Assembly (NCBI GenBank): GCA_015061945.1
Contig: SUVP01000006.1
Location: 1-64,000, forward strand
From: Opitutales bacterium
Lineage (GTDB): Bacteria > Verrucomicrobiota > Verrucomicrobiia > Opitutales > Intestinicryptomonadaceae
Direction: 5' to 3'
Length of the DNA stretch: 64,000 nt
Part shown: positions 1 to 58,204 of the stretch, in pieces
How the letters are laid out: every line of letters starts with the position of its first letter
Position numbering within the stretch: the first letter of the stretch is position 1
Translations under genes and position numbers: made by a program
The notes under the pieces: generated by a model
What the model saw: only the letters and a program-made list of their open reading frames with translations
Told to the model about the DNA's origin: nothing
Databases searched by the model: none

Positions 1-172
1 TTTTATTCTACCTCTTTGATATTCTATTGCCGTTATTGCCAGTGTAGTATGGCAATAACTAAAAATGTTGCACATTTTTACAATAGAATATCGGGGGAAT
101 GGCACCTACGCTTCCAGTCGATGTTTTACGGAGCTGAATACGATGAGTCGCAAGTTCCCACGCTTTTCTTTT
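1..172 (-). repeat. Module X, copy A, with a perfect three-way-junction fold
   Basis: One of three copies in the window (others at 394-570 and, inverted, 57091-57267). Bases 18-29 (GATATTCTATTG) pair perfectly with 81-92. Inside that stem are two further hairpins: 32-41 (GTTATTGCCA) with 50-59, and 61-68 (AAAAATGT) with 72-79. Only a few unpaired bases lie at the junction, which gives a three-way junction. The rest of the module (about 95-172) is conserved sequence without an obvious long stem. Confidence 0.85.
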
Positions 173-393: not shown

Positions 394-570
394 TTTTATT
401 CTACCTCTTTGATATTCTATTGCCGTTATTGCCAGTGTAGTATGGCAATAACTAAAAATGCTTCACATTTTTACAATAGAATATCAGGTGAATGGCACCT
501 ACGCTTCCAGTCGATGTTTGCGGAGCTGAATACGATGAGTTGCAAGCTCCCACGCTTTTCTTTTTATTAG
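394..570 (-). repeat. Module X, copy B
   Basis: Second copy of module X. The outer stem is 411-422 with 474-485 and matches copy A exactly. The second inner hairpin has a changed tip (aaaaatg-cttca-cattttt) that shortens the stem by one pair. The copy is followed directly by the terminal arm 571-694. Confidence 0.85.
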
Positions 571-48157: not shown

Positions 48158-50197
48158 TTAGAATTTAATTTCTATCCCACAACGTAAAGTACGACCAGGG
48201 TCGACATACCACGATGTTAAGGCTCCGCCTGTTTGCCAATCGAGATAGGTTGACGCATACGAGCAATTCATATGGTTTGTGAGGTTTGACACTGCAAAGA
48301 AAAGGCGTGCGTGTTCGCAAGGATAGATGTTCACAGTTAAGTCTAAACTATAACTTTCTGGAATTTTATCTGTCGATACATTTCCCAAGTCGGCATAATT
48401 TTCTTTGTATTGCGAGCTATTCCAAATGAAATTTAATTCAACCATAAAGTAGTCGATAGGCTTTACCCACAAGCCCGACTTCGACATAATATCTGGCACC
48501 ATTGCAACTGTCTTATTTTTGTATGGCCCTGAATCGTATTCGGCATCGACAAATGTCCACGAGGTGAACGCTCCGACTTTCTTTTCATAATCATATCCCA
48601 AACGGAATTGTGCACCGTAGCGATTTGTATCGCCAATATTCTTGTTTGCAAACGTTGTGCCGTCGTAAGCGATTTCGTCGTTCAAGTGCATATAGAACAA
48701 ACTTGTATTAAATACGAATCCGTCTTTTGAAAAGTTTGTGCCTATTTCATAATTTTGTCCGTGTTCGGGATCCAAATTAGAATTGTTATATTGGGGTCCC
48801 CAACCGTGAAGACTGAACCGTTCGTCGACTAATGGATAGTGATAAATTTGGTCGAAACGAACATAGACATTCCATTGTTCGTTGATTTTTGCATTCAATC
48901 CGAGTTGACCTGCAAAACCATTTACTAATTCATCATCGCTGAGAGAATCGTAGTTTGATGTCATATCGTTGACGACGGCTTCGTAGCGTCCCGACGCATT
49001 TATAGAAAATGTATCGTTGAGTTGTGCTTTACCGGCAACCCAAGGTGCGACTGTGAATCGGTCGATTTTAGAGTGGAGCGTTTTGTAATATGTACCCCAA
49101 TTTGTGTATGGACTTCGAGAAATACTGAGATGGTCGTAAGTGAAGTCGACACCACCTTCGGCATAACTTTCATCTTCTTCGCCTAAATAAATTCTATATT
49201 TGGGATCAAAGGAGAGCGTATACAATGTAGGTTCTGAAGTATACGAATATCCGTACGATTTTACATAATCATTAAAAACGGAATTATCTTTTATGTTTAA
49301 ACCCAAGTGAGCAGACCCTTCGCCAAAGGCAGTGTTGTTTTCCCACGAGAGCGATGCAGTGATGTAATCAACGCTATGTTCTTCTGTTTTTGTGAGATTA
49401 TTTGGATACAAATCTTTGAGTTCGGCAGCAGTGCCAGCAGTGATATATCCGGGCCACGATATGAACATATTGCCAAAGTTTATGTAAAGCCCGAGTTCGT
49501 TTTTTGTGTCGAGTTTTGCACCTGCACTAATTGTTACCGATTTATTCCAGTTGAGCGAGTCTTCAAAAAATCCGCTATCGTGAAAATAATTTGCACTGAC
49601 TGATGCGTAATAATCTTCCGTTGAATAATTGACAGTTCCATAGAATGAGTACTCGCCATATTCTCCGTATGTCGCACCGAAAGTTCCACCATTTTTGCCC
49701 CATTTTTTTGTCGTGATTTTTATCACACCACTTTCGGCGTAGTTGCCGTATGTTGCCGTTTGCGCGCCATAGAGAACTTCGATATTATCGATATCGTTAA
49801 CTTGAATTTGTCCCCAGTTAATACCACGCATATCGATGTTATTTAAACGTTGTCCGTCCAACAAAACGAGTACTCGCGATTGGCTATTTACGCCGAAACC
49901 ACGCATAGATGGTTGTCCCATAAAAGTACCACCACCAGTGTTGCGAATGAAGACATCGGAGTACCTATTGAGTACTTGCGAGGTGCTTGAAAGATTGCTA
50001 TCGGATATTTGTTCGGCACTGATATTTGTTGCGTTTACGGGCGACTCATAAAGCGAGTCCGAAAAACGCATTGCACTCACTTCGACAGGTGTGAGTTCAT
50101 CTGATGTATTGGCGATTTGCGTGTTTGTGTCGTCTGCAAAAGTTGAAAAACTTGCAGATAGAATTAAGCCACAAAAAGCAAGGTATTGTATATTCAT
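48158..50197 (-). CDS. btuB: TonB-dependent outer-membrane receptor, BtuB-type (cobalamin uptake)
   Basis: 679 residues from the ATG at 50197, preceded by GAGGAAAG. A signal peptide (about 1-21) is followed by a plug domain with SQVLNRYSDVFIRNTGGGTFMG, VLVLLDGQRLNN and NIEVLYGAQTATYGNYAESG. A long beta-barrel ends in RTLRCGIEIKF with the terminal phenylalanine. On sequence alone the ligand would be uncertain. The cobalamin riboswitch directly upstream on the same strand makes vitamin B12 or another corrinoid the likely cargo. A typical N-terminal TonB box is only weakly visible (DELTPVEVSAMRF). No btuCDF genes lie in the window. Confidence 0.85.
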   Translation of the reverse strand: MNIQYLAFCGLILSASFSTFADDTNTQIANTSDELTPVEVSAMRFSDSLYESPVNATNISAEQISDSNLSSTSQVLNRYSDVFIRNTGGGTFMGQPSMRGFGVNSQSRVLVLLDGQRLNNIDMRGINWGQIQVNDIDNIEVLYGAQTATYGNYAESGVIKITTKKWGKNGGTFGATYGEYGEYSFYGTVNYSTEDYYASVSANYFHDSGFFEDSLNWNKSVTISAGAKLDTKNELGLYINFGNMFISWPGYITAGTAAELKDLYPNNLTKTEEHSVDYITASLSWENNTAFGEGSAHLGLNIKDNSVFNDYVKSYGYSYTSEPTLYTLSFDPKYRIYLGEEDESYAEGGVDFTYDHLSISRSPYTNWGTYYKTLHSKIDRFTVAPWVAGKAQLNDTFSINASGRYEAVVNDMTSNYDSLSDDELVNGFAGQLGLNAKINEQWNVYVRFDQIYHYPLVDERFSLHGWGPQYNNSNLDPEHGQNYEIGTNFSKDGFVFNTSLFYMHLNDEIAYDGTTFANKNIGDTNRYGAQFRLGYDYEKKVGAFTSWTFVDAEYDSGPYKNKTVAMVPDIMSKSGLWVKPIDYFMVELNFIWNSSQYKENYADLGNVSTDKIPESYSLDLTVNIYPCEHARLFFAVSNLTNHMNCSYASTYLDWQTGGALTSWYVDPGRTLRCGIEIKF

Positions 50198-50262
50198 TTT
50201 GTCTTTCCTCATTACTTCGATTTGGATTTTTTCGAGGAAAGAATATTTCTAACTTTCGCTAT

Positions 50263-50490
50263 AAAACAAAAAGTGGATAGCGAGCAGTCCGTAAATCCTT
50301 TTCTCGAGATTATTGTTGGACTATCCTACACACACGTCTTCTGGCTTATTCCGTACCTAAAAATTAGGTGCAACCAACCTTCCCATTTTTCAACAGTGGT
50401 TTATTTGGTTGCTTCGAAAAATTACAGCGGCGAGACCGCGCTTGATTTTCACAAGTCTTCCGTTTGAGTAAGGATTTTTATTTAAAGAAC
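50263..50490 (-). promoter_or_regulatory. Cobalamin riboswitch upstream of the receptor gene
   Basis: On the minus strand the conserved B12-box core is clear: GGAAGACTTGTGAAAATC, then GCGCGGTCTCGCCGCTGTAA (50443-50424), and further on AAGCCAGAAGACGTGT (50346-50331), matching the aptamer consensus segments in the right order. The expression platform can form a stem between GGATAGTCC (50326-50318) and GGACT...ATCC (50290-50275, with a bulge). It is followed by ACTTTTTG, so binding of cobalamin probably ends transcription before the receptor gene. Confidence 0.88.
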
Positions 50491-50498
50491 GTAAATCG

Positions 50499-50525
50499 AT
50501 TTTAAATGTTGTCTATTTTTGTCAA
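50499..50525 (-). promoter_or_regulatory. Candidate promoter of the riboswitch-btuB transcript
   Basis: On the minus strand, a perfect TTGACA (50525-50520) stands two bases after the larB stop codon. It is followed by a 15-base spacer and TAAAAT (50504-50499), five of six -10 matches. The aptamer begins about 10 bases further on. This lets btuB be transcribed independently of the lar genes. The spacer is shorter than the ideal 17. Confidence 0.5.
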
Positions 50526-56960: not shown

Positions 56961-56967
56961 TTTATTT

Positions 56968-57090
56968 GACGGGCACCGGCGGACATTGTCTAACGACAAT
57001 ATGTCCTTTGAAACAGGTTGCCGAATTATACAGAAAACTCTCCAAAGCGTTGGAGAGTTTTCGTTTTAGTTTTTTAATGGTGTTTTTTCT
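56968..57090 (+). repeat. Left terminal arm of repeat element copy 2 (covarying hairpins)
   Basis: The first hairpin pairs GGACAT (56981-56986) with ATGTCC (57001-57006) and TGTC (56987-56990) with GACA (56995-56998), leaving an AT bulge. The second pairs ACTCTCCA with TGGAGAGT around the same AAGCGT-type loop as the other arms. Stems differ from the arms at 571-694 and 57474-57575, yet remain fully paired, while loops, bulge and outer sequence are the same. Confidence 0.85.
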
Positions 57091-57267
57091 AATAAAAAGA
57101 AAAGCGTGGGAACTCTTAACTCATCGTATTCTCAGCTCCGTAAACATCGACTGGAAGCGTAGGTGCAATTCCCCCGATATTCTATTGTAAAAATGTGCAA
57201 CATTTTTAGTTATTGCCAAATTACACTGGCAATAACGGCAATAGAATATCAAAGAGGTAGAATAAAA
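57091..57267 (+). repeat. Module X, copy C (inverted), with three-way-junction fold
   Basis: The outer stem GATATTCTATTG (57176-57187) pairs with CAATAGAATATC (57239-57250). Inside lie AAAAATGT-gca-ACATTTTT and GTTATTGCCA-aattacac-TGGCAATAAC. All three stems are perfect. Base changes relative to copies A and B within this fold fall in loops. Confidence 0.85.
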
Positions 57268-57349
57268 GCACCGATTCATCTCTTTTATTATTCTAAAAAA
57301 CTAAATCATAAAGACTGCAACACACACAAAATAAAAATCCGAACAGGGA

Positions 57350-57460
57350 TAGGAGCATTGCGAATGCAATCTCCGTAAGGGGCAACGCCCCTTCAACGAT
57401 GTGCAGGTGGCTCACCTGCTTGCAGTGGGGTTTGGGGAGGGTGCAACCAACCCTCCCCAA
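57350..57460 (+). repeat. Module Y hairpin cluster, copy 2 (inverted)
   Basis: Four hairpins in reverse order to copy 1: GGAG...CTCC with the inner GCATTGC/GCAATC pair, GGGGC-aac-GCCCC, GCAGGTG-gct-CACCTGC and TTGGGGAGGGT (57432-57442) with ACCCTCCCCAA (57450-57460). Loops differ from copy 1 (ttt to aac, tgattgc to gcaacca), stems do not. Confidence 0.8.
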
Positions 57461-57473
57461 GATCTATTAACTC

Positions 57474-57577
57474 CTAAAAACGAAAAACTGGCAACGCTTT
57501 GCCAGTTTTTCTGTATAACTCAGCAACCCGAAATCAGCGAGCGATATTGCCTACGGCAATCGCTCGCCGGTGCCCTT
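57474..57577 (-). repeat. Right terminal arm of repeat element copy 2
   Basis: Nearly identical (three to four differences) to the arm 590-694 of copy 1, including the AACTGGCA/TGCCAGTT hairpin and the GAGCGAT-type hairpin with AT bulge. Its outer part encodes the C-terminus of QueC on the minus strand. The hairpin with flanking A and T runs could end queC transcription. Confidence 0.85.
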
Positions 57578-58204
57578 CTGATAAAAAAATTGGAAGGCTT
57601 GGTCTCTTTCTATGCAGGTTGCACATTTGTGGCAAGGTTCGTCGAGTCCGTTGTAGCAGGACCAAGTTAGATCGAAGTCGACACCGAGTTTGTATCCGAG
57701 GGCGATGATATCGGTTTTGGTCATATTCACGAATGGGCGTTCGAGTTTAATTGGGGTGTAGTGGCAGATGCCGAGAACGTTATTGAGTGCGTCTGCAAAT
57801 TCTGGTCGGCAATCGGGGTAGATGGAGTGGTCTCCGCTATGGGCGGCGTATGCGACGGAGTCGGTTCCTAGAGCGATAGCTCGTGCAGTTGCGATAGCGA
57901 TGAAAATCATATTGCGGTTTGGCACGACAGTTGTCTTCATATTAGACTCGTCATAATCGCCAGTTGGGACATCTACGTTAGGGTTTGTTAGGGCGTTGTC
58001 TCCGAACAGGTGTGATAGTGAAGATATATCGGCGATATCGAGTTTTACGCCTAATTTTTCACAATTAGCCTTTGCACAATCAAGTTCTTTGAGGTGCCGT
58101 TGTCCATAGTTGAACCAAAGTGCACCGTCTGCACGACCTTGTTTTGCGAGATAGTGGAGTAGGACTGTTGAATCGAGTCCACCAGAATATACAATTAGAG
58201 CCAT
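57551..58204 (-). CDS. queC: 7-cyano-7-deazaguanine synthase
   Basis: Makes preQ0 from 7-carboxy-7-deazaguanine, ammonia and ATP, an early step to queuosine. The PP-loop SGGLDSTVLLHYLAKQG is near residue 7. The zinc site has four cysteines in SCYNGLDEPCHKCATC near residue 190, and RNMIFIAIA lies near 98. 217 residues. The final residues (GTGERLP) come from the arm of repeat element copy 2, in a different frame from that used in MiaB, so the original end has been replaced. It is divergent from the phosphate transporter gene. GluQ, the last queuosine-modifying step, is also encoded in this window. Confidence 0.94.
   Translation of the reverse strand: MALIVYSGGLDSTVLLHYLAKQGRADGALWFNYGQRHLKELDCAKANCEKLGVKLDIADISSLSHLFGDNALTNPNVDVPTGDYDESNMKTTVVPNRNMIFIAIATARAIALGTDSVAYAAHSGDHSIYPDCRPEFADALNNVLGICHYTPIKLERPFVNMTKTDIIALGYKLGVDFDLTWSCYNGLDEPCHKCATCIERDQAFQFFYQKGTGERLP

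Follow-up and report, generated by a model that had tools for sequence, protein, structure and literature searches.

Modular folded repeats of the BOX and BIME type are well described in a few model bacteria. The BOX element of Streptococcus pneumoniae (boxA-boxBn-boxC) is modular, strongly folded and intergenic, and can be up to 637 bp long; the SPRITE element of the same species resembles a Rho-independent terminator and is enriched at the 3′ ends of convergent genes (PMC3049150). BOX, RUP and SPRITE are all over-represented in the gaps between convergent genes, which has been interpreted as a possible sign of mobile, parasitic elements (PMC3049150). Here, a repeat of this kind is described from a gut member of the Opitutales (Verrucomicrobiota). 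Its organisation, T-X-B-T′, matches that of the pneumococcal modular folded repeats (PMC3049150), and module X is therefore read as the core of a modular, MITE-like repeat: X probably forms the folded, conserved core of a new, lineage-specific, modular and non-autonomous interspersed repeat, which is BOX/SPRITE-like and MITE-like.

The genome comprises 2.5 Mb in 15 contigs and is about 97% complete, and the window, i.e., the whole stretch of DNA analysed, is the first 64,000 nucleotides of one contig (C8:1-64000). By its EF-Ts neighbours, the organism falls among gut Opitutales/Puniceicoccaceae. Modules were counted by searching the genome. Alignment of the loci places X in a composite of about 630 bp, T-X-B-T′, with the general formula T-[X-B]n-T′, where n is 1 or 2. 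X with all three stems of its junction occurs in 11 full copies genome-wide, three of them in the window: copy 1 (1-172, + strand), with which the contig starts; copy 2 (394-564, + strand); and copy 3 (57095-57267, − strand), found by the genome search. X-B is doubled in tandem at the window start (copies 1 and 2), and B alone is doubled at C11 and C4. There is also a partial X at the end of contig C12 (C12:1-109), with 100% identity to window bases 1-109; this overlap suggests that C12 and C8 are adjacent contigs broken at the X repeat. One X remnant (C14:307718) has no junction at all.

All 11 junction copies lie inside the composite, beside B and T, and the X junction is the only module never found outside it; B and T also occur without X. 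Module B is rich in hairpins and in G+C, and searches place it at 186-393 (− strand) by X copy 2 and at 57268-57476 (+ strand) by X copy 3. The B core is also present in genomes of the same genus, one of which carries it as a tandem array, roughly 72-bp (L097, G001:C2:703125-703735); G000:C3:2916-3197 holds a short array like it. In the link between X and B, a possible competing pairing (AGAGG/CCTCT) was rejected, as it is not kept across copies.

The junction of X is a near-perfect, three-armed structure of 75 bases. In copy 1 (18-92, + strand) it runs from GATATTCTATTG through CC and two hairpins, the first of 10 bp and the second of 9 bp, to CAATAGAATATC; by folding and alignment, an outer stem of 12 bp without mismatch (18-29/81-92) encloses stems of 10 bp (32-41/50-59) and 9 bp (60-68/72-80), and the only unpaired bases at the junction are C30 and C31. 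The corresponding structure lies at 411-485 (+ strand) in copy 2, by folding and alignment, and at 57176-57250 (− strand) in copy 3, where it folds with RNA and with DNA parameters. The first-pass annotation had described this fold in the same three copies, and re-folding agrees with it on the perfect outer stem, on the 10-bp hairpin and on the presence of the fold in copies 2 and 3, the latter in inverted orientation relative to copies 1 and 2. It gave the other hairpin as 8 bp, which holds for copy 2 but is 9 bp in copy 1; it was right that few junction bases are unpaired, but its "about four" overstated the two that are.

As RNA, 18-92 has a minimum free energy of −30.2 kcal/mol, compared with −10.4 ± 2.6 in dinucleotide shuffles (z −7.7; 0 of 5,000 as low), in which perfect end stems reached 8 bp at most. 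When 1.28 Mb of random sequence (20 × 64 kb, first-order) was scanned for two perfect hairpins of 7 bp or more enclosed by a perfect outer stem of 6 bp or more, none turned up, and across all loci examined, including those of other genomes, the only matches to this pattern were the X copies of this genome. The shuffling comparison had been proposed in the first-pass annotation, and both results bear out its claim that such stems are improbable by chance. So stable a fold speaks for X being all or part of a structured non-coding RNA that is expressed from the intergenic composite and acts in trans or, together with B, as a long structured RNA. We consider this explanation unlikely, and one point against it is that the strands are equal in fold (−30.2 versus −30.1): as both fold alike, no single transcribed strand is indicated by the sequence. 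With DNA folding parameters, copy 3 has a z of −8.5 relative to shuffles. This strong DNA fold and the perfect inverted repeats would suit X as a putative DNA site, kept in the gaps between convergent genes, where a nucleoid, topoisomerase or recombination protein of the host would bind a cruciform or hairpin, e.g. for supercoiling; BIME-gyrase sites have a proposed role in dealing with supercoiling. With just 10 loci in 2.5 Mb, such a site appears rather improbable.

The 11 junction copies, all from one genome, are 94-98% identical, and in their alignment five columns vary (41, 47, 49, 68 and 70), each of which is in a loop or a loop-closing pair. Thus, the earlier statement that copies differ mainly in loops holds. 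Disrupted stems in copies elsewhere, which the first-pass annotation had named as a refutation, do not occur: in none of the junction copies is a stem broken beyond one loop-closing pair. For copies that share ancestry, the chance that all five variable columns would be unpaired is about 4e-4 (17 unpaired columns, 29-pair model), and under a 31-pair model, in which only three of the five are unpaired, about 0.03, again for copies of shared ancestry. This loop bias is suggestive of a constraint on pairing, and it is among the points in favour of an RNA, as is the high conservation of X within the composite. No stem pair has changed on both sides among the seven distinct junction sequences, which offer hardly any variation to judge by. 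The X stems are without covariation, which counts against an RNA, but the copies are too alike to judge; thus, selection on pairing can be neither established nor refuted from this alignment, and recent spread could by itself account for the perfection of the invariant stems.

Possibly, a small palindromic element once inserted into the composite and X is only its trace, which owes its perfection to recent copying or gene conversion and has no present role. The near identity of the copies, the lack of compensatory change and the restriction of X to this species among those searched would fit such a history, but conservation is uneven across the copied unit: mean pairwise diversity is 0.021 in the junction versus 0.083 in the remainder of X (its right half), and is also several-fold below that of the linkers (0.06-0.14). 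We therefore regard a mere trace as very improbable. Elsewhere in the composite, diversity is 0.023-0.039 in the B hairpins and 0.14-0.29 in T. The junction is among the best-preserved parts of the repeat.

The T module, about 110 bp long, carries TTTATATGACGGGCACCGGC together with two hairpins: one has a conserved bulge, and the other is terminator-like and ends in TTTTCGTTTTAG. T′ is an inverted copy of T, and the two arms, which are 77-86% complementary, form a long inverted repeat. By X copy 3, the left T module (56961-57067, + strand) has GACGGGCACCGGC, a variable hairpin and a terminator-like hairpin at 57033-57062, and the right, inverted T′ module (57477-57585, − strand) has its terminator-like hairpin at 57511-57482; the T′ module of the copy-2 composite (593-694, − strand) adjoins a 490-aa open reading frame (ORF; 650-2122). 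Direct inspection revealed several versions of the T stems in which pairing is kept (CTCTCC/GGAGAG, ACTGGC/GCCAGT, ACTGCC/GGCAGT and GACCACC/GGTGGTC), i.e., the T stems show compensatory covariation. This covers both the hairpin and the terminator (57016-57067 and 57477-57528 in the window), with about 20 distinct T modules genome-wide. A scan of the composite for promoters and terminators found exactly two terminator-like hairpins, one in T and one in T′, and one promoter-like site, compared with 1.4 expected. Both results weigh against X as an RNA, which would be expressed with terminator-like hairpins at both of its outer sides.

The 10 composite loci comprise six convergent gaps (the sixth counted on the assumption that C12 and C8 are neighbours), four co-directional loci and no divergent ones. 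That convergent genes flank six of the 10 loci would accord with a DNA site kept in such gaps, but tolerated insertions predict a convergent bias equally well (PMC3049150). T often starts within a few bases of a stop codon, and in several loci the stop codon lies inside T. Some flanking genes end within T, which provides or changes their C-terminus and stop codon, e.g. a queC-like ORF (window 57551-58204, − strand) and those at L015 and L020. The lone T copies examined were, by eye, downstream of a gene and in the sense orientation. Three of the four co-directional composites have T at both ends, one of which serves no gene; thus, the composite acts as a single unit. The fourth (C4) is without its B-side T. 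At the C12, C2 and C5 loci, T ends are kept although no convergent gene there needs a terminator. The X side of all four co-directional composites is turned toward the 3′ end of the upstream gene, and this counts against random insertion, which does not predict such a bias (n = 4). PEP-CTERM-like tails, for instance VPEPAEWAMLLGAIALGLAIYRRRK, are encoded by several genes that adjoin a composite or a T module (L017, L019, L229). The window also contains a cobalamin riboswitch (50315-50509, − strand), which scores above the Rfam gathering score and lies upstream of a 684-aa ORF (48158-50212, − strand).

Outside this genome, X was absent from 13 genomes of the same genus (DNA and covariance-model searches), from phage and plasmid searches, and from viral contigs and GTDB genomes in an exact-pattern scan. 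Among 373 genomes of the order there was no true copy, the only weak matches coming from one distant genome (G023); these were rejected as homologues of X, as they belong to a different family of long-hairpin palindromes. In that multi-copy family (L140-L145), a very long perfect hairpin, CCGATAGGCGATTTTTA...TAAAAATCGCCTATCGG, precedes another hairpin, and its sequence is unrelated to that of X. The absence of X from the same-genus relatives searched counts against both the RNA and the DNA site. The Rfam search that the first-pass annotation had proposed gave no match at the gathering score, just chance-level ones, so a known RNA family was rejected for X. That annotation had placed a functional RNA or a cruciform protein-binding site inside the repeat; a structured element is indeed there, but the functional RNA is without Rfam match, promoter signal above chance or covariation. 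As X never occurs outside T-X-B-T′, its likeliest meaning changes: most likely it is not an independent RNA gene but the folded core of a small interspersed repeat, and an RNA or protein-binding role for it is possible.

At the composite edges, which are T/A-rich, no target-site duplication is evident by eye. In the relatives with readable tsf and ybaB ends, these genes have plain terminators or an operon partner downstream, and no clean empty site for the composite was seen. The Y1 transposase (PF01797, RAYT-type) has no match in the genome (about 97% complete), while five control genomes were positive, so a RAYT/REP origin of X was rejected. In one T-bearing stretch of 15 kb and in four short regions with T, a look over the ORFs revealed no obvious transposase; an autonomous transposon bounded by T was likewise rejected, as the stretches inspected proved to be T copies at gene ends, with no obvious transposase. 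Since neither a target-site duplication, nor a partner transposase (Y1 being excluded), nor a clean empty site was seen, we can only infer that the composite was mobile in the past.

If X is the folded core of such a repeat, the inverted T ends, which bear terminator-like hairpins, would allow copies to be tolerated at the 3′ ends of genes, chiefly between convergent genes. The three-way junction would probably serve the repeat itself: while the repeat spreads or is maintained, a hairpin or cruciform would be recognised there in DNA that is single-stranded or supercoiled. Its active form would then presumably be DNA rather than RNA, and it would be recognised by some host or element protein. 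More tentatively, and with doubt outweighing belief, the composite may be a new type of element, the inverted ends of which are working transcription terminators that plug into gene 3′ ends and sometimes provide a stop codon, with a conserved three-way-junction core that is a specific nucleic-acid ligand needed either for its spread or for some RNA function in convergent gaps.

Compared with known systems, the composite is like MITEs in being short, non-coding, intergenic and multi-copy, with inverted ends (the terminal inverted repeats of MITEs corresponding to T/T′, with their 77-86% complementary arms) and strong secondary structure; it is unlike them in that no target-site duplication was seen by eye and no partner transposase identified, and in that B is G+C-rich rather than AT-rich. 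Like REP/BIME with RAYT, it has palindromic units in mosaic intergenic clusters, but the genome is without a Y1 (RAYT-type) transposase and there is no short single-hairpin REP unit. The T module is like SPRITE, a terminator-like hairpin repeat at the 3′ ends of convergent genes, but has an extra covarying hairpin and brackets an inner X-B cassette. The composite shares with BOX its repeated inner modules, strong predicted fold, intergenic position and bias to convergent gaps, a likeness of organisation only. In BOX, a variable number of inner modules lies between two different ends; here, at about ten loci, the inner unit X-B is present once or twice, and a single terminator-bearing module supplies both ends as inverted copies. 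The repeat is a clear test case for whether such repeats persist because terminator ends make gene-end insertion harmless or useful. What distinguishes the Opitutales repeat is an unusually strict three-armed core, combined with terminator-bearing inverted ends that have covarying stems.
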